Shown one piece after another: positions 17,937 to 28,283 of a stretch of DNA of 41,515 nucleotides. The translations under genes and the position numbers were made by a program. Each line of letters starts with the position of its first letter. Position 1 is the stretch's first letter. The stretch lies in contig JAJFUR010000080.1 of the NCBI GenBank assembly GCA_021372335.1, positions 1 through 41,515 of the forward strand, in the 5' to 3' direction. The notes under the pieces were generated by a model. That model was not told where the DNA came from. It made no database searches and saw only the letters and a program-made list of their open reading frames with translations. This DNA is from Methanobacteriota archaeon. Its GTDB lineage: Archaea; Thermoplasmatota; Thermoplasmata; Methanomassiliicoccales; UBA472.

Positions 17937-19005
17937 TTCCGTGGAGGGCATTCGCTGGAAGATAGAGGAGATCGACAACCAGATCCTGGACCTGATCAAG
18001 AGGCGCATGGAAATCGCCCTGAGCATGGGGCAGCAGAAGGTGGAGAAGGCCCTGCCGGTGCGGGACCTGCGGGTGGAGGAGCAGGTGCGGACGAGGTACC
18101 TCGCGCGGGCGAAGGAGGTGGGGATCAGCGAGGCGGCCGCGATCGAGCTGGCGACCCTGCTCGTCAGGGAGTCGGTCGAGGCCCAGGCCCGGCTGCCCCG
18201 CCCGATGCGGCCGCGCAAGGTCCTGGTGGTCGGCGGCGGGGGGGCGATGGGGCAGTGGCTGTGCCGCTTCTTCGCCTCCCGCGGGCACGAGGTGACGGTG
18301 AGCGACGCCCAGCCCGGGGGAGGGTTCCCGAACGTGGGGCTGGAGGAGGGGGTGCGGGGGGCGGACGTCATCGCGGTGTCCACGCACATCTCCGCCACCG
18401 AGGAGGCGCTGCGGAAGGTGCTCCGGCTGAGGCCGAAGGGGCTGGTGTTCGACATCGCCTCGGTCAAGGCCCCCTTCATTGACGTCCTGAGGGAGGGCGC
18501 GGCCCAGGGGCTGCTGGTCTGCTCCATCCACCCCATGTTCGGCCCGAGCGCCTCCTCCATGTTCGCCCGGAACCTCATCGTGTGCAACTGCGGCTCCGAC
18601 GCGGCCGTCGGCCGGTTCATGCCCCTGCTGAACGGGACGGGGGCGAACGTCGTCGAGATGCCAGTCGAGGACCACGACCGGCTCATCGCCATCGTCCTCG
18701 GGATGAGCCATGCGCTCAACCTGGCGTTCTTCGGGGCGCTGCGGGCGAGCGGGTTCAGCTACGAGGAGCTGAGCAGGGTGGCCTCCACCACGTTCGAGCG
18801 GCAGATGAGCATCAGCAAGAGCGTGGCCATGGAGAGCCCAAACCTTTACTATGAGATCCAGCATCTGAACCCGCACAACCGGGAGATCCTGGATAGGCTG
18901 ATCGATGCCCTGAGGGAGGTCCAGCAGGCGGGGTGCGACGAGGACCGGGAGCATATGATCAGGCTCATGCAGGAGGGAAGGAAGTACTTCGAGGTGAAAC
19001 GATGA
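17929..19005 (+). CDS. tyrA: Chorismate mutase-prephenate dehydrogenase (bifunctional)
   Basis: The N-terminal AroQ-type chorismate mutase (about 1-85) has IRWKIEEIDNQILDLIKRR and QQKVEKALPVRD, and makes prephenate. The C-terminal NAD(P)-dependent prephenate dehydrogenase (about 90-358) starts RKVLVVGGGGAMGQWLCRFF and contains FDIASVKAPF, SIHPMFGPSA and EDHDRLIAIVLGMSHALN. The product, 4-hydroxyphenylpyruvate, goes to tyrosine. TTG 17929 was chosen because GAGGTG (17916-17921) lies 7 bases upstream; GTG 17920 and GTG 17941 are alternatives. The prephenate dehydratase for the phenylalanine branch is 12 kb away at 29637 and has no mutase domain, so this fusion probably serves both branches. Confidence 0.94.
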   Translation: MTDSVEGIRWKIEEIDNQILDLIKRRMEIALSMGQQKVEKALPVRDLRVEEQVRTRYLARAKEVGISEAAAIELATLLVRESVEAQARLPRPMRPRKVLVVGGGGAMGQWLCRFFASRGHEVTVSDAQPGGGFPNVGLEEGVRGADVIAVSTHISATEEALRKVLRLRPKGLVFDIASVKAPFIDVLREGAAQGLLVCSIHPMFGPSASSMFARNLIVCNCGSDAAVGRFMPLLNGTGANVVEMPVEDHDRLIAIVLGMSHALNLAFFGALRASGFSYEELSRVASTTFERQMSISKSVAMESPNLYYEIQHLNPHNREILDRLIDALREVQQAGCDEDREHMIRLMQEGRKYFEVKR

Positions 19006-20063
19006 GGAAGGTGCAGGTGGCGGTCCTAGGCGCCACGGGAATGATCGGCCAGAGATTCGTGCAGCTGCTCGAGGGCCATCCCTATTTCGAGATCGGCGGC
19101 CTCTACGCCTCCGAGCGGTCGGAGGGGAAGACGCTCGGGGAGGTCCTGAGGGTGAAGGGCGTCCGCTTCCAGGACGAGACGCTCGCCATGAGGATAGAGG
19201 CGCTGGAGCCCAAGGCCATCGCCCGGCGGTGCCGGTTGGCGTTCTCGGGCCTCCCCACCGAGGTGGCTAAGGACGCCGAGGCCGCGCTCGCCGATGCCGG
19301 CGTAGCGGTGTTCTCCAACGCCGCCTCCCACCGCATGCGGGCGGACGTCCCGCTGCTCATCCCCGAGGTCAACCCGGACCACCTGGAGCTGGCGCGCTCC
19401 CAGGCGACCTTCCCCCAGGGCGGGTTCATCGTCACCAACGCGAACTGCTCGACCACCGGCCTCGCCGTCCCGCTCAAGGCCGTCCACGCGGCGTTCGGGC
19501 TCAGGGCCTGCTATGTCTCCACGTACCAGGCCGTCTCCGGCGCCGGCTACCCGGGCGTCCCGTCCCTGGACATCCTCGGGAACGTGGTCCCCTTCATCCG
19601 GAACGAGGAGGAGAAGATGGAGGAGGAGATCCACAAGATGCTCGGCACATATAAGGGCGGCAGGGTCGAGCCCGCAGCCTTCGACATGGTGGCCAGCTGC
19701 GCCCGCGTCCCGGTGCTGGACGGGCACCTGGAATCGGTCGTCCTGAGGCTGGGGAGGGAGGCCGCCGCCGCCGAGGTCGTCGAGGCCCTGGAGACGTTCA
19801 GGCCCGAGCCCCAGGCGCTCGGCCTGCCCACCGCTCCCCTCCGGCCGATCATCGTGCGTGGGGAGGAGGACCGCCCCCAGCCCATCGCGGACGCCCTGGC
19901 GGGGGAGCCCGAGCGGGCGAGGGGGATGGCCGTGAGCGTGGGCCGTGTCCGGGAGCGCAAAGGATATATCAAGCTCTGGGTGCTTTCCCACAACACCCTG
20001 AGGGGCGGGGCCGGCGGGTCCGTGCTCAACGCGGAGCTGGCAAAGGCCAAGGGGCTCCTCTGA
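19002..20063 (+). CDS. asd: Aspartate-semialdehyde dehydrogenase
   Basis: This enzyme reduces aspartyl phosphate to L-aspartate semialdehyde with NADPH. It has 353 residues and is of the archaeal/fungal type. The N-terminal Rossmann motif is VAVLGATGMIGQRFVQLLEG. The catalytic Cys149 lies in NANCSTTGLAVPL. The segment YQAVSGAGYPGVPSLDILGNV is the conserved substrate-site region. The ATG overlaps the tyrA stop (ATGA). In this operon the product has two nearby uses: substrate for ADH synthase (first gene) and precursor of homocysteine (next genes). Aspartate kinase is encoded in the neighbouring his operon. Confidence 0.96.
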   Translation: MRKVQVAVLGATGMIGQRFVQLLEGHPYFEIGGLYASERSEGKTLGEVLRVKGVRFQDETLAMRIEALEPKAIARRCRLAFSGLPTEVAKDAEAALADAGVAVFSNAASHRMRADVPLLIPEVNPDHLELARSQATFPQGGFIVTNANCSTTGLAVPLKAVHAAFGLRACYVSTYQAVSGAGYPGVPSLDILGNVVPFIRNEEEKMEEEIHKMLGTYKGGRVEPAAFDMVASCARVPVLDGHLESVVLRLGREAAAAEVVEALETFRPEPQALGLPTAPLRPIIVRGEEDRPQPIADALAGEPERARGMAVSVGRVRERKGYIKLWVLSHNTLRGGAGGSVLNAELAKAKGLL

Positions 20064-20075
20064 GGGGGGTGCTGG

Positions 20076-21242
20076 ATGAAGCGGACGGTAGCGGAGATCA
20101 ACCAGAGGATCAAGGACGGGGACGTGGTGGTCATGACCGCCGAGGAGGTCGTCTCCTACGTCCAGAGCGAGGGCGTGGAGCGCGCCGCCAAGGAGGTGGA
20201 CGTCGTGACGACGGGCACCTTCGGGGCCATGTGCTCCTCCGGCGCCTTCCTGAACTTCGGCCATTCCGAGCCGCCGATCCGCATGCAGCGGGTGACCCTC
20301 AACGACGTCCCGGCCTACGCCGGGCTGGCGGCGGTGGACGCCTACATCGGCGCCACCGAGCTCAGGCAGGACGGGCGTGAGGAGTACGGGGGCGCGCACG
20401 TCATCGAGGAGCTGGTGGCCGGAAGGGCGGTCCGCCTCAGGGCCTCCTCGAGCGGCACCGACTGCTACCCACGCAAGGAGATCGACACGTACGTCTCGCT
20501 GAACACCATGAACCAGGCGTACCTCTTCAACCCCCGGAACTCGTACCAGAACTACGCCTCGGGGACCAACTCCTCCGAGCGCACCCTCTACACCTACATG
20601 GGCAAGCTGTTGCCGAACTACGGCAACATCACCTATTCCAGCGCCGGGCAGCTATCCCCCCTCCTCAACGACCCCACGCTCCGCACCATCGGCATCGGCA
20701 CCCGGCTGTTCCTAGGCGGGGGGACGGGGTACGTGGCGTGGGAGGGCACGCAGTTCAAGACCAACGTGGAGACGCGGTTCGGGGTGCCCATGGGCGGGGC
20801 GAGGAGCCTCGCCACCATCGGGGATATGCGGGGCATGTCCCCCGAGTTCATCCGGGCGGTGGCCCTCACCGGGTACGGCGTGTCCCTGGCCATCGGGATC
20901 GGGGTCCCCATCCCGATCCTGGACGAGGAGGTCATGCGGAGCTGCGCCATCAGCGACGAGCAGCTCTTCTCCCCCCTTGTCGACTACTCCGTCCAATCCC
21001 GGAACCGCAGGCCGATCAAGCACTTCTCCTACGCGGAGCTGCGCTCGGGGAAGGTGGAGCTCTTCGGCCGGGAAGTGCGGACCTCCTCCCTCTCCAGCTA
21101 CCTGAAGGCGAGGCAGGTCGCCGAGACGCTCGCGGAGCGGATCGAGGGCGGGGAGTTCCTGCTCACGGAGCCGGTGGCGCCGCTGCCCGCGGACAGGGGG
21201 GTCGGCACCCTGGAGGTGCGGTCCAAGGAGGAGGCGGTCTGA
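20076..21242 (+). CDS. Homocysteine biosynthesis protein (COG1900/DUF39)
   Basis: This protein is homologous to Methanosarcina MA1821, which with its ferredoxin partner is needed to convert aspartate semialdehyde to homocysteine. It has 388 residues. Conserved segments are TTGTFGAMCSSGAFLNFGHS (Cys53) and SSSGTDCYPRKEID (Cys130), plus SYQNYASGTNSSERTLYTYM and the glycine-rich LFLGGGTGYVAWEGTQF. The two cysteines fit the conserved pair implicated in persulfide chemistry in Methanosarcina, as I recall it. It lies 12 bases after asd, and its stop shares one base with the start of the ferredoxin gene. The sulfur donor is not encoded here. Confidence 0.9.
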   Translation: MKRTVAEINQRIKDGDVVVMTAEEVVSYVQSEGVERAAKEVDVVTTGTFGAMCSSGAFLNFGHSEPPIRMQRVTLNDVPAYAGLAAVDAYIGATELRQDGREEYGGAHVIEELVAGRAVRLRASSSGTDCYPRKEIDTYVSLNTMNQAYLFNPRNSYQNYASGTNSSERTLYTYMGKLLPNYGNITYSSAGQLSPLLNDPTLRTIGIGTRLFLGGGTGYVAWEGTQFKTNVETRFGVPMGGARSLATIGDMRGMSPEFIRAVALTGYGVSLAIGIGVPIPILDEEVMRSCAISDEQLFSPLVDYSVQSRNRRPIKHFSYAELRSGKVELFGREVRTSSLSSYLKARQVAETLAERIEGGEFLLTEPVAPLPADRGVGTLEVRSKEEAV

Positions 21243-21646
21243 TGGCCAAGCGGAAGTTCCTCCTGGGCTTCAGCCCGGACCTAGTGAACGAGGCCATCGT
21301 CTACCGCCTCGTTAAGGACTACGACCTGAAGATCAACATCCTCCGGGCGGAGGTGCGGGAGCAGGGCGGCCGGCTGCTGATGGAGGTGGAGGGGAAGGCG
21401 GGCAACATCAAGGAGGCCGTCCGCTACCTGAACGAGGCGAGGGTGGAGGTGCAGGAGCTCGCCACCTACGTGGAGAAGAACGAGGAGCGGTGCACCCACT
21501 GCGGCATGTGCCTGTCGATCTGCCCGGTGGAGGCGCTCACGGTGGAGAGGCCGTCGTGGAGGGTCCGTTACGACGCCGAGCGGTGCATCGCCTGCGGGAT
21601 GTGTATCGACGCCTGCCCTCCGGGAGCGATGAAGTTCCGGCTATGA
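21242..21646 (+). CDS. NIL-domain/2x[4Fe-4S] ferredoxin (homocysteine pathway partner)
   Basis: This is the homologue of Methanosarcina MA1822. The 134-residue protein has an N-terminal NIL domain (about 4-78; FLLGFSPDLVNEAIVYRLVK) and two [4Fe-4S] binding motifs: Cys84-87-90-94 (CTHCGMCLSICP) and Cys115-118-121-125 (CIACGMCIDACP). It probably supplies electrons for reductive sulfur insertion by the upstream COG1900 protein. Start and stop overlap both neighbours (TGATG, and ATGA with UPF0280), so the trio is tightly coupled. Confidence 0.92.
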   Translation: MAKRKFLLGFSPDLVNEAIVYRLVKDYDLKINILRAEVREQGGRLLMEVEGKAGNIKEAVRYLNEARVEVQELATYVEKNEERCTHCGMCLSICPVEALTVERPSWRVRYDAERCIACGMCIDACPPGAMKFRL

Positions 21647-22362
21647 GGAGACATTTCCAGTACAAGGAGACGGCCGTCACGATCGAGGCGGACGAGGAGT
21701 ACCTTCCCCTGGCGGAGAAGGCCGTGCTCGACGCCCGCGAGGAGGTGGAGGCGTACATAGCCAAGGACCCCTACTTCAAGGCCACGTTCGATCCCTATCC
21801 AGTGAGGGCGGACATGGGGGAGGTGGTCCGGCACATGTGCGAGGCCGCGCAGCGGGCGGACGTGGGGCCGATGGCCGCGGTGGCGGGCGCCATCGGCCAT
21901 CACGCCGTGGCGGCGATGACGAAGGCGGGATGCAAGCACTGCCTGGTGGACAACGGCGGGGACATCGTCATGCGCACCAATCGGACCGTGACCGTCGGCC
22001 TGTACTCCAGCGTCCGGACGCCGAACTATCTGGCCCTTGAGGTTCCGGCCACGAAGGCGCCGTACAGCATATGCACCTCGTCCGGGACGGTCGGGCCGTC
22101 CATATCCCTGGGCAGGGCGGACCTGGCGACCGTCATCGCCGCGGACGGGGCGCTCGCGGACGCCTGCGCGACCAAGCTCGGCAACCTGATCACCGAGGAC
22201 GACCTGACGCTCATCGACCGGGCCATCCGGGAGGTGCTGGCCATCGAGGGGGTCAAGGGCGCCCTGGTCATGATCGCCGGGAAGCTGGGGCTGGGAGGGG
22301 AGGTCCCCCGGCTGGTGCGGTGCGACGTCCCCCCGGAGCTCATCACCCGCGTCCGTTATTGA
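21643..22362 (+). CDS. UPF0280 family protein (ApbE-like fold)
   Basis: This 239-residue protein is of unknown function; it is common in methanogens and related to the ApbE/FAD:protein FMN transferase fold. Motifs seen are PMAAVAGAIGHHAVAAMTKAG, the glycine/aspartate motif LVDNGGDIVMRTN (like the DxGGD/NxGG site of ApbE) and YSICTSSGTVGPSISLGRAD (like the HxxxP-TSG segment). The C-terminal half (ADACATKLGN) also fits ApbE. No signal peptide is seen. It overlaps the NIL-ferredoxin stop (ATGA) as last gene of the operon, which points to a part in homocysteine synthesis or flavin-dependent maturation of that system. That is inference. Confidence 0.85.
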   Translation: MRRHFQYKETAVTIEADEEYLPLAEKAVLDAREEVEAYIAKDPYFKATFDPYPVRADMGEVVRHMCEAAQRADVGPMAAVAGAIGHHAVAAMTKAGCKHCLVDNGGDIVMRTNRTVTVGLYSSVRTPNYLALEVPATKAPYSICTSSGTVGPSISLGRADLATVIAADGALADACATKLGNLITEDDLTLIDRAIREVLAIEGVKGALVMIAGKLGLGGEVPRLVRCDVPPELITRVRY

Positions 22363-22506: not shown

Positions 22507-23370
22507 ATGACACTCAGGCTGGCCATACCCAACAAAGGACGGCTGAGCGAGAGGTCCATAGAGATCCTCAAGCAGGCCGGGCTGGAGATCGAGAACGGCG
22601 ACGAGCGCAGGCTCTACGCCAACGTCAAGCGCCAGGACCTGGTGGTCATGTTCCTCCGGGCCCAGGACATAGTCCGGTTCGTGCACAAGGGGGCGGTGGA
22701 CGTGGGCATCACCGGCTACGACCTCGTGCTCGAGTCCGGGCTGGACGTGGTCGTCCCCTACAGGCTCAACTTCGGGCACTGCCGATTATCCGTGGCGGTC
22801 CCCGACACCATGGCCGTCAAGGGGCCGGAGGCCCTCCCGGACGGGCTGGTGGTGGCCACCTCCTTCCCGAACCTCACCCGCAGGTACTTCGAGGGTCTGG
22901 GCAAGCGGGTGGAGATCGCCCCCATAGCCGGGGCGGCGGAGGTCGCCCCGCTCCTGGGGGTGGCGGACATCATCGTCGACCTGGTGGCCAGCGGCTCCAC
23001 TCTTAAGATGAACCACCTGCGCGAGCTCGCCGTGATCGCGGAGTCACAGGCGGTGGTCATCGCCAACCGCGAGGCCTACGAGGGGTGCGAGCAGCAGGTC
23101 CAGGAGGTGATCTCGGCCATGCTGAGCGTGACCGAGGCGGAGAACAAGAAGTATCTCATGGCCGACGTGCCCAAGGCCTCCCTGGAAGAGGTCAAGCGGG
23201 CCTTCCCCGGGATCGCCGGGCCGACCATCATGAACATCATCGGCCGGGACGACGTGGTGGCCGTGCACGTCGTCATCGACAAGGCGGACGCGTACGATGC
23301 GATCAACCAGCTGAAGCGCATGGGCGCCACCGGCATCCTGCTGACCCCCATCGACCGGATGGTTCCCTGA
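22507..23370 (+). CDS. hisG: ATP phosphoribosyltransferase, long form
   Basis: This enzyme catalyses the first committed step of histidine synthesis, ATP plus PRPP to phosphoribosyl-ATP. It has 287 residues, so it is the long form with a regulatory C-terminal domain and needs no HisZ. It starts LRLAIPNKGRLSERSIEIL. It also contains GITGYDLVLESG, the PRPP-type loop in DIIVDLVASGSTLKMNHLR and the C-terminal regulatory segment VVAVHVVIDKADAYDAINQL. Histidine feedback on this domain is typical of the family. Upstream in-frame starts (from 22450) would precede the predicted transcription start. Confidence 0.96.
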   Translation: MTLRLAIPNKGRLSERSIEILKQAGLEIENGDERRLYANVKRQDLVVMFLRAQDIVRFVHKGAVDVGITGYDLVLESGLDVVVPYRLNFGHCRLSVAVPDTMAVKGPEALPDGLVVATSFPNLTRRYFEGLGKRVEIAPIAGAAEVAPLLGVADIIVDLVASGSTLKMNHLRELAVIAESQAVVIANREAYEGCEQQVQEVISAMLSVTEAENKKYLMADVPKASLEEVKRAFPGIAGPTIMNIIGRDDVVAVHVVIDKADAYDAINQLKRMGATGILLTPIDRMVP

Positions 23371-27028: not shown

Positions 27029-27627
27029 GCGCCCCCAAGTTCGATGCCGATGGGCTCGTCCCTGTCATCGTGCAGGACCACGAGACCAACGAGGTGCTGA
27101 TGATGGCCTATGCCAACGAGCAGGCGTACCGGGACATGCTGCGGACCGGCTACACCCATTTCTACTCCCGTTCCCGGCAGGCCCAGTGGAGGAAGGGGGA
27201 GACGTCTGGGCATGTCCAGGAGATCGTCTCCATCCAGCTCGACTGCGACGGCGACGCGCTCCTCGTGCGGGTGAGGCAGACGGGGGTGGCCTGCCACCTC
27301 GGGCGGATGTCGTGCTTCGACGAGGTGCTCTACGGGGACCCCGATGGCACCATGGCCGTGCTCCCCCCGCTCCTGCGGGTCATCCGGGAGCGCAGGGCCG
27401 AGCCCCGGGAGGGCAGCTACACGTGCACGCTCTTCGCGGACGAGAACAAGCGCCTGAAGAAGGTGGTCGAGGAGGCGGGGGAGGTGATCCTGGCGGCCAA
27501 GGACCGGAAGGCCGAGGAGCAGGCCTGGGAGGTGGCCGACCTCGTGTACCACCTCCTGGTGGCGGTGGAGGGGATGGAAGTGACCTGGGAGGACGTCTAC
27601 CGGAAGCTGGCGGAGAGGAGGAGATGA
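27025..27627 (+). CDS. hisIE: Phosphoribosyl-AMP cyclohydrolase / phosphoribosyl-ATP pyrophosphatase fusion
   Basis: This bifunctional enzyme covers steps 2 and 3 of histidine synthesis. The cyclohydrolase (about 1-110) has [34 protein letters not shown] and the zinc/metal cysteines in [11 protein letters not shown] and [12 protein letters not shown]. The pyrophosphatase (about 118-200) has [20 protein letters not shown] and [14 protein letters not shown]. It has 200 residues, normal for the fusion; many archaea carry the two as separate genes. It is joined to hisF and the PHP gene by ATGA overlaps. Confidence 0.96.
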
Positions 27628-28283
27628 GGGCGGAGCTGCACACCCACACCCTGCTGAGCGACGGCGAGCTGCTGCCGATCGAGCTGGCCCGCCGCGCGGT
27701 GGTGAAGGGGACGAAGTACCTGGCGTTCACGGACCACGTGTCGCTCAGCAACCTGGAGCGGGTCGTGGCCGAGGGCCGGCGGGACGCCGAGCTGGCGGAG
27801 GAATGGGGCATGAAGGTGCTGGCCGGGGTGGAGGTCACGCACGTCCCCGTCCGGCGCATCGACGAGGTCGTGCTCAAGGCGCGCAGGCTCGGCGCGGAGC
27901 TCGTGGTGGTCCACGGGGAGACGCTCAGCGAGCCGGTGGAGAAGGGGACGAACATGGCCGCCGTGCTCAACCCCGAGGTGGACATCCTGGCCCACCCGGG
28001 GCTCATCACCCTGGAGGAGGCGCAGCTGGCCCGCGACAACGGGGTGGCGCTGGAGATCACCTCCCGGAGCTCCCACTGCAAGGCCAACGGGCATGTGGCC
28101 CGGATGGCCCAGCAGGCCGGGGCGCCCATGGTCGTGAACACGGACGCGCACGGCCCCGACGACCTCATCGATCTGCCCACGGCCCTGCAGCTCGCGCTGG
28201 CGGCCGGGCTGACCCGCGAGGAGGCGGACCGGGCGCTCATCGAGGTGCCGAAGGCCATCATCAAGCGGAGGTGGCGCGGCTGA
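27624..28283 (+). CDS. PHP-domain phosphoesterase, candidate histidinol phosphatase
   Basis: This 219-residue PHP protein has metal-binding motifs typical of the family: ELHTHTLLSDGE (His6, His8), FTDHVSLSNLERV, the Glu in AGVEVTHVP, VVVHGETL, ILAHPGLIT, SSHCKAN and VVNTDAHGPDDL. The family includes HisK-type histidinol phosphatases. HisB here lacks a phosphatase domain and this gene is coupled to hisIE by ATGA, so histidinol phosphatase is the best guess. Archaeal proteins of this size are often only annotated as domain-containing, and the activity is not proven. Its TGA forms a CTGA overlap with the lysC start. Confidence 0.8.
   Translation: MRAELHTHTLLSDGELLPIELARRAVVKGTKYLAFTDHVSLSNLERVVAEGRRDAELAEEWGMKVLAGVEVTHVPVRRIDEVVLKARRLGAELVVVHGETLSEPVEKGTNMAAVLNPEVDILAHPGLITLEEAQLARDNGVALEITSRSSHCKANGHVARMAQQAGAPMVVNTDAHGPDDLIDLPTALQLALAAGLTREEADRALIEVPKAIIKRRWRG

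Follow-up and report, generated by a model that had tools for sequence, protein, structure and literature searches.

A UPF0280 (COG2122) protein with an ApbE fold in a Methanomassiliicoccales homocysteine operon: a proposed sulfur-supply accessory of COG1900 enzymes

Introduction

The way in which anaerobes incorporate sulfide into thiols independently of the classical PLP enzymes is unsettled, and the closest described systems are those of D. vulgaris and M. acetivorans. In D. vulgaris Miyazaki, the genes for COG2122 (DvMF_0044), DUF39 (COG1900) and a NIL/ferredoxin protein are all three required for homocysteine, methionine rescues the COG2122 mutants, and the fitness profiles of COG2122 and DUF39 correlate with r = 0.98 over 170 experiments (PMC5764234). 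The same paper, citing a 2016 study, describes the COG2122 protein MA1715 of M. acetivorans as needed at low sulfide, with the mutant rescued by more sulfide and also by cysteine; COG2122 is presented there as a distant ApbE relative, apparently without the flavin-binding region, for which a part in persulfide formation has been suggested. In PMC12068725, MA1715 is named a sulfur trafficking protein for L-ASST. The reaction is drawn in that paper with an aldehyde, a sulfur species and electrons only, the electrons coming from the NIL-ferredoxin or from a ferredoxin inserted in MMP16; which form of sulfur COG1900 enzymes use is said there to be unclear, and the core cysteines of MMP16 are reported to be dispensable in M. 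acetivorans. Additionally, the abundance of the Methanococcus voltae homolog is higher with Fe(II)/sulfide than with pyrite (PMC9431491).

Here we describe a UPF0280 (COG2122) gene on a 41,515-nucleotide contig of a Methanomassiliicoccales archaeon (JAJFUR010000080.1; hereafter, the window). A first-pass annotation had proposed the protein as a third component of homocysteine synthesis beside COG1900 and the NIL-ferredoxin, a proposal that agrees with the published genetics (PMC5764234), but it had also called the role not established, when in fact one is already in print for both D. vulgaris COG2122 (PMC5764234) and MA1715. The main claim is thus ordinary, namely a known component in a known pathway.

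The UPF0280 gene and its operon

The relevant features are given below; residue numbers are those of the window protein, A2 is the 75-row UPF0280 alignment, and the FmnB equivalents are those that we infer from motif spacing on the ApbE motifs.

19002..20063, + strand: aspartate-semialdehyde dehydrogenase (ASD), maker of the COG1900 substrate; TIGR00978, 400 bits, with a query that began at 18996, two residues upstream of the start at 19002
20076..21242, + strand: COG1900 / HcyBio (DUF39), L-aspartate semialdehyde sulfurtransferase type; PF01837, 500 bits
21242..21646, + strand: NIL-domain ferredoxin, 134 aa; NIL PF09383, 50.3 bits, and two Fer4 stretches
21643..21646, + strand: ATGA overlap of the NIL-ferredoxin stop with the UPF0280 start, read from the sequence
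21643..22362, + strand: UPF0280 / COG2122 protein, 239 aa, ApbE fold, proposed sulfur-assimilation accessory; NF003324, 275 bits; PDB 2o34, E 1e-27; model pLDDT 94.2
21952..21963, + strand: codons of Asn104 to Asp107 (NGGD), aligned with ApbE NAGGD (FmnB Asn216); N, G and G in 75/75, D in 74/75
22072..22074, + strand: codon of Cys144, the only near-invariant cysteine; C in 73/75 rows of A2, Ala in 22/25 paralogs
22078..22080, + strand: codon of Ser146, aligned by hhalign with the catalytic Ser of ApbE (FmnB Ser257); 75/75
22159..22173, + strand: DACAT codons, Asp173 to Thr177, which match the Mg ligands of ApbE (FmnB Asp301, Thr305) in the alignment; Asp173 and Thr177 each 75/75

ASD, COG1900, NIL-ferredoxin and UPF0280 form a tight run in this order, in which the last two joints are overlaps: a TGATG joins the end of COG1900 to the start of the NIL-ferredoxin, and the ATGA, which the first-pass annotation had read correctly, joins the ferredoxin to UPF0280. 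The UPF0280 frame starts with ATG and stops with TGA. That it is the last gene of the operon, as had also been claimed, is plausible, with hisG starting at 22507, 144 bases on; no terminator-like site was found on the + strand. Judged from its sequence, the frame is a real gene, because it scores at the NF003324 cut-off of 275 bits, shares 76% identity with a same-genus homolog (L008) and has homologs spread over many phyla; among the named rows of the tree, one from a Methanomassiliicoccales archaeon (Thermoplasmatota) is nearest. All domains of the L-ASST homocysteine system (PF01837; NIL and ferredoxin) are found in the window, in one operon with UPF0280.

The protein has the same family and pathway as MA1715, which is required for efficient sulfide assimilation and works with a COG1900 enzyme (PMC12068725, PMC5764234), and it is a COG2122 protein like DvMF_0044, which is genetically required for homocysteine (PMC5764234), and DVU1097 of D. 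vulgaris Hildenborough. The latter two are bacterial, and whereas the three genes lie together in the window, they are apart in D. vulgaris Miyazaki, judging by the locus tags in PMC5764234.

An ApbE fold without the flavin-transfer machinery

The closest solved structure is that of DVU1097 (PDB 2o34; phmmer as listed above, profile E 7.6e-55), and an AlphaFold model of the window protein, built from 75 sequences (pTM 0.92), aligns with it in VIA at Z 26.4 (rmsd 2.4, 214 aligned, 30% identity). ApbE chains follow at Z 17.8 to 14.6, the best being 1vrm with an rmsd of 2.9 and 205/309 residues aligned, and the best row beyond 2o34 and the ApbE chains belongs to urate oxidases, at Z 8.5; the predicted structure has the ApbE fold. 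The likeness in sequence is weak: Pfam ApbE (PF02424) gives E = 3.3e-4 and 20.7 bits against a gathering threshold of 25.6, and searching the PDB with an A2 profile returned 2o34 and no ApbE at E up to 10. The ApbE link rests on the fold and on hhalign, which matches UPF0280 with five archaeal ApbE sequences over the C-terminal half (probability 95.9, E 5.5e-9).

What, then, is left of the ApbE active site? FmnB uses Asp301, Ser257 and His273, and its site also holds Asn216, Thr305, Lys190 and Arg262 (PMC8906456). The first-pass annotation had likened two motifs to the ApbE flavin-transfer site, had suggested an overlay on ApbE, and had raised flavinylation of the COG1900/ferredoxin pair as a function. 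Both motifs are present, LVDNGGDIVM at residues 101-110 and SGTVGPSISLGRAD at residues 147-160, and the likeness holds for the fold and for Asn104, Ser146, Asp173 and Thr177, which align with metal/phosphate-site residues of ApbE, are invariant in 75/75 rows, and would include the catalytic Ser and Asp and the metal-ligand Thr. It fails for the rest of the site: the place of the catalytic His is taken by H in 38 of the 75 rows and by P in the other 37 (P in the window), the NYER segment with its Arg, DPxTG and a Lys at the ApbE AKG place were not found in UPF0280, and about 100 ApbE residues are without a counterpart in the shorter UPF0280 protein. The proposed flavinylation fares no better on the side of the acceptors, since the ApbE acceptor motif D-x-x-[ST]-G-A-[ST] (PMC12052999) occurs in 0/95 COG1900 proteins, 0/80 NIL-ferredoxins and 0/9 MMP16 proteins and in none of the window's own COG1900, NIL-ferredoxin and ASD. 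UPF0280 of the window also differs from ApbE / FmnB in that it carries no visible export signal. Going by the model, UPF0280 is an ApbE-fold protein but most likely not a flavin transferase.

An FeS cluster motif, CX2CX6DX2(H/C)X2C, has been proposed near the C-terminus of the ApbE-like protein (PMC9431491). This motif was looked for in A2 and occurs in 0/75 rows, so we set the cluster aside.

Cys144 and a paralogous branch

As Thr145-Ser146 align with the active-site Thr-Ser of ApbE, Cys144 adjoins the old metal/phosphate site in sequence. The two exceptions in A2, Ala in L115 and Gly in L140, mean that this cysteine is not universal; it is kept in 38/40 further rows, and the two remaining ones are L179, whose sequence is divergent, and L197, a fragment from a contig end. 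Since Cys also occupies the equivalent position of one archaeal ApbE (L056), the cysteine alone is no marker of a sulfur protein.

A paralogous UPF0280 branch of 25 loci (among L171-L196) is typed as NF003322 from one tested member (L172). These paralogs are of one superfamily with the window protein and keep NGGD as well as the Asp and Thr of DxxxT, but at position 144, 22 of them have Ala, 2 have Cys and 1 has Thr; the genes adjoin AA_synth (PF06684) in 19/25 loci, and no COG1900 lies in the fetched flanks of the 25 loci. In L172, the neighborhood includes what we take to be a molybdenum-hydroxylase-like gene. Within these alignments, Cys144 is a mark of the COG1900-linked UPF0280 branch.

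UPF0280 and COG1900 occur together

The first-pass annotation had recommended a check of co-occurrence with COG1900, and the match is near-complete in three phyla. In the phylum of the window, UPF0280 and COG1900 are each present in 30/196 genomes, and the lists are identical; NIL is found in 22/196, every one among the 30, so UPF0280 tracks COG1900 more closely than the ferredoxin does. In the phylum of a Methanosarcina record (L100, genome G210), UPF0280 and COG1900 occupy an identical set of 116/146 genomes, and in that of a deltaproteobacterial record (L135, genome G217), UPF0280 is in 110/148 and COG1900 in 105/148, all 105 inside the 110. Hypergeometric p values for the co-occurrence take no account of relatedness and serve as a rough guide. 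The five genomes with UPF0280 and no COG1900 match are G378 (which has a weak paralog match only), G379, G459, G484 and G500; since UPF0280 adjoins a NIL-ferredoxin in G484, COG1900 may merely be absent from that assembly. In other words, UPF0280 without COG1900, which had been named as counting against a shared role, is hardly seen in the COG1900-linked branch, although the separate paralogous branch does occur so. There is also a counter-example in the other direction: Synechococcus elongatus has PF01837 and no NF003324 match, which indicates that not every COG1900 needs UPF0280.

Physical linkage is less complete. COG1900 lies within the fetched flanks (up to 5 kb) of UPF0280 in 56/80 named loci, and the remaining 24 have a NIL-ferredoxin only (one), ComDE only (one) or none of these (22). 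Of 23 genomes without COG1900 or NIL-ferredoxin near UPF0280, 21 have COG1900 elsewhere, the misses being G197 (L066) and G206 (L087); this search covered 25 genomes, including two with linked COG1900 that served as positive controls. PF02424, the true ApbE, was detected in 7/196 genomes of the window's phylum, only one of which (G007) is among the 30 with UPF0280, and none was found in the host genome.

A side observation concerns G484, where a predicted cysteine desulfurase-like frame, read from the translation, follows NIL-ferredoxin and UPF0280 (L167, 2300-5269) and hints at a sulfur source.

Gene order and a link to coenzyme M

The order COG1900, NIL-ferredoxin, UPF0280 is found in 22/30 genomes of the window's phylum. 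Four others (G165, G156, G125, G185) have the order COG1900, UPF0280, ASD with no NIL, and in the last four, no COG1900 or NIL lies closer than 1.5 kb to UPF0280. At L045, L046, L047 and L052, the runs of COG1900, UPF0280 and ASD come with no NIL match anywhere in the genome.

In three of the last four genomes (G109, G112 and G023), UPF0280 ends a run of MMP16, cysteate synthase and ComDE, and the single COG1900 of each genome is of the MMP16 type. In G109, MMP16 scores 490 bits against a cut-off of 364 and cysteate synthase 570 against 325; of sulfopyruvate decarboxylase, the alpha part reaches 189 (cut-off 148) and the beta part 210, just short of its 221.5. By these profiles, the run is the coenzyme M pathway. 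Related arrangements occur elsewhere. UPF0280 adjoins ComDE and cysteate synthase in G050, whose 5 Mb assembly (contamination 7%) has MMP16 near the end of another contig, and it adjoins ComDE in Methanoplasma (L066); in Methanothermococcus (G214, L109), the one COG1900 is of the MMP16 type and is not linked to UPF0280. The bacterial genomes G383 and G490 have two UPF0280 and two COG1900 genes each, and in each, one of the UPF0280 genes adjoins an iron-sulfur protein of CCG/LdhH-like type and an MMP16, which scores 415 bits in G383. In two bacterial genomes of the phylum of the deltaproteobacterial record, at L161 (2703-5431) and L162 (3418-6163), MMP16 (methanogenesis marker 16) lies between UPF0280 and the CCG/LdhH-like protein.

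The MMP16-linked UPF0280 rows, a group that was named before the tree was built, take separate places on it, namely within the Methanomassiliicoccales rows, within a bacterial clade, and with L109 and L139, and the starred branches force at least three changes. A single origin of these copies, as one clade, is rejected (AU p 2e-77).

We found no report of an operon link between UPF0280 and MMP16 or coenzyme M in the literature, including the available text of PMC12068725 and PMC5011839, though a supplementary neighborhood figure of the former may show one. New, as far as we have found, is that UPF0280 accompanies COG1900 also in genomes that have no COG1900 other than the MMP16 of a coenzyme M operon, and that two bacterial genomes have a second UPF0280 next to MMP16. 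This observation would be a modest extension of the published picture, in which UPF0280 partners COG1900 enzymes at large, coenzyme M synthase among them.

Proposed role and alternatives

We lean toward the view that UPF0280 is a cytoplasmic protein of the ApbE fold, which has given up flavin transfer and serves as a sulfur-supply accessory of COG1900 aldehyde sulfurtransferases. The delivery chemistry that we infer would run as follows. COG1900 of the host would form homocysteine from aspartate semialdehyde and sulfide, the NIL-ferredoxin supplying the electrons. UPF0280 would collect the sulfide as a Cys144 persulfide or as metal-bound sulfide, with Cys144 holding it perhaps next to a divalent metal, one residue before the metal-site Thr-Ser pair, and would pass the sulfur to COG1900, which would join it to the aldehyde. 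Elsewhere, UPF0280 may do likewise for the coenzyme M synthase MMP16, although the dispensability of the MMP16 core cysteines (PMC12068725) means that relaying persulfide to this enzyme would require a different acceptor. More tentatively, and with less confidence than we place in the accessory role, we hypothesize that the COG1900-linked proteins are general sulfur-loading proteins for homocysteine and coenzyme M (MMP16/ComF), in which an ApbE-type phosphotransfer fold, stripped of its His/DPxTG machinery, employs a cysteine adjacent to the former metal site. Should UPF0280 act for MMP16 in addition to L-ASST, it would also matter for coenzyme M and hence for methane formation, and Cys144 and the kept metal-site residues are directly testable mutants.

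The invariance of Asn104, Ser146, Asp173 and Thr177, and the retention of the Asn, Asp and Thr in a paralog branch that mostly lacks Cys144, could instead mean that UPF0280 keeps the Mg-phosphate chemistry of ApbE on another substrate, with Cys144 being structural; it would then hydrolyze or transfer a phosphate or nucleotide, for example in activating or repairing a cofactor or substrate of COG1900. We consider this unlikely, for no substrate is known, the reaction as drawn in PMC12068725 calls for none beyond the aldehyde, sulfur species and electrons, and Cys144 tracks the COG1900 branch. Somewhat less plausible still is a non-catalytic subunit or chaperone of COG1900 enzymes, a reading that would account for the almost perfect co-occurrence and for the swapping of partners to MMP16 but not for catalytic-site residues kept across very distant sequences, and to which the rescue of the M. 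acetivorans mutant by more sulfide (PMC5764234) is a poorer fit than to sulfur supply. Finally, a flavin transferase or flavin-cofactor maturase for COG1900 or the NIL-ferredoxin, for which the fold, the four aligned residues and a host without PF02424 ApbE (which UPF0280 could in principle replace) might speak, is very improbable given the lost site residues and the absent acceptor motif.

Sulfur metabolism of the host

Returning to sulfur supply, we also considered SepCysS as a UPF0280 client in the host and rejected it, as SepCysS gave no match over the cut-off in 13 relatives, the host's own genome included; COG1900 is therefore the only known sulfur client found in the host. This differs from M. 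acetivorans, where cysteine can also rescue the MA1715 mutants (PMC5764234). The host genome does contain a strong PLP enzyme of family PF01053, which may give it another way to homocysteine beside COG1900.

A last observation concerns the neighboring his operon. Histidinol phosphatase has been described as being without annotation in ANME and methanogen genomes (PMC9012536). Right after the HisI/HisE fusion, the window encodes a PHP-domain protein (27624-28283) that scores 282 bits vs 117 for NF004981, a histidinol phosphate phosphatase domain.
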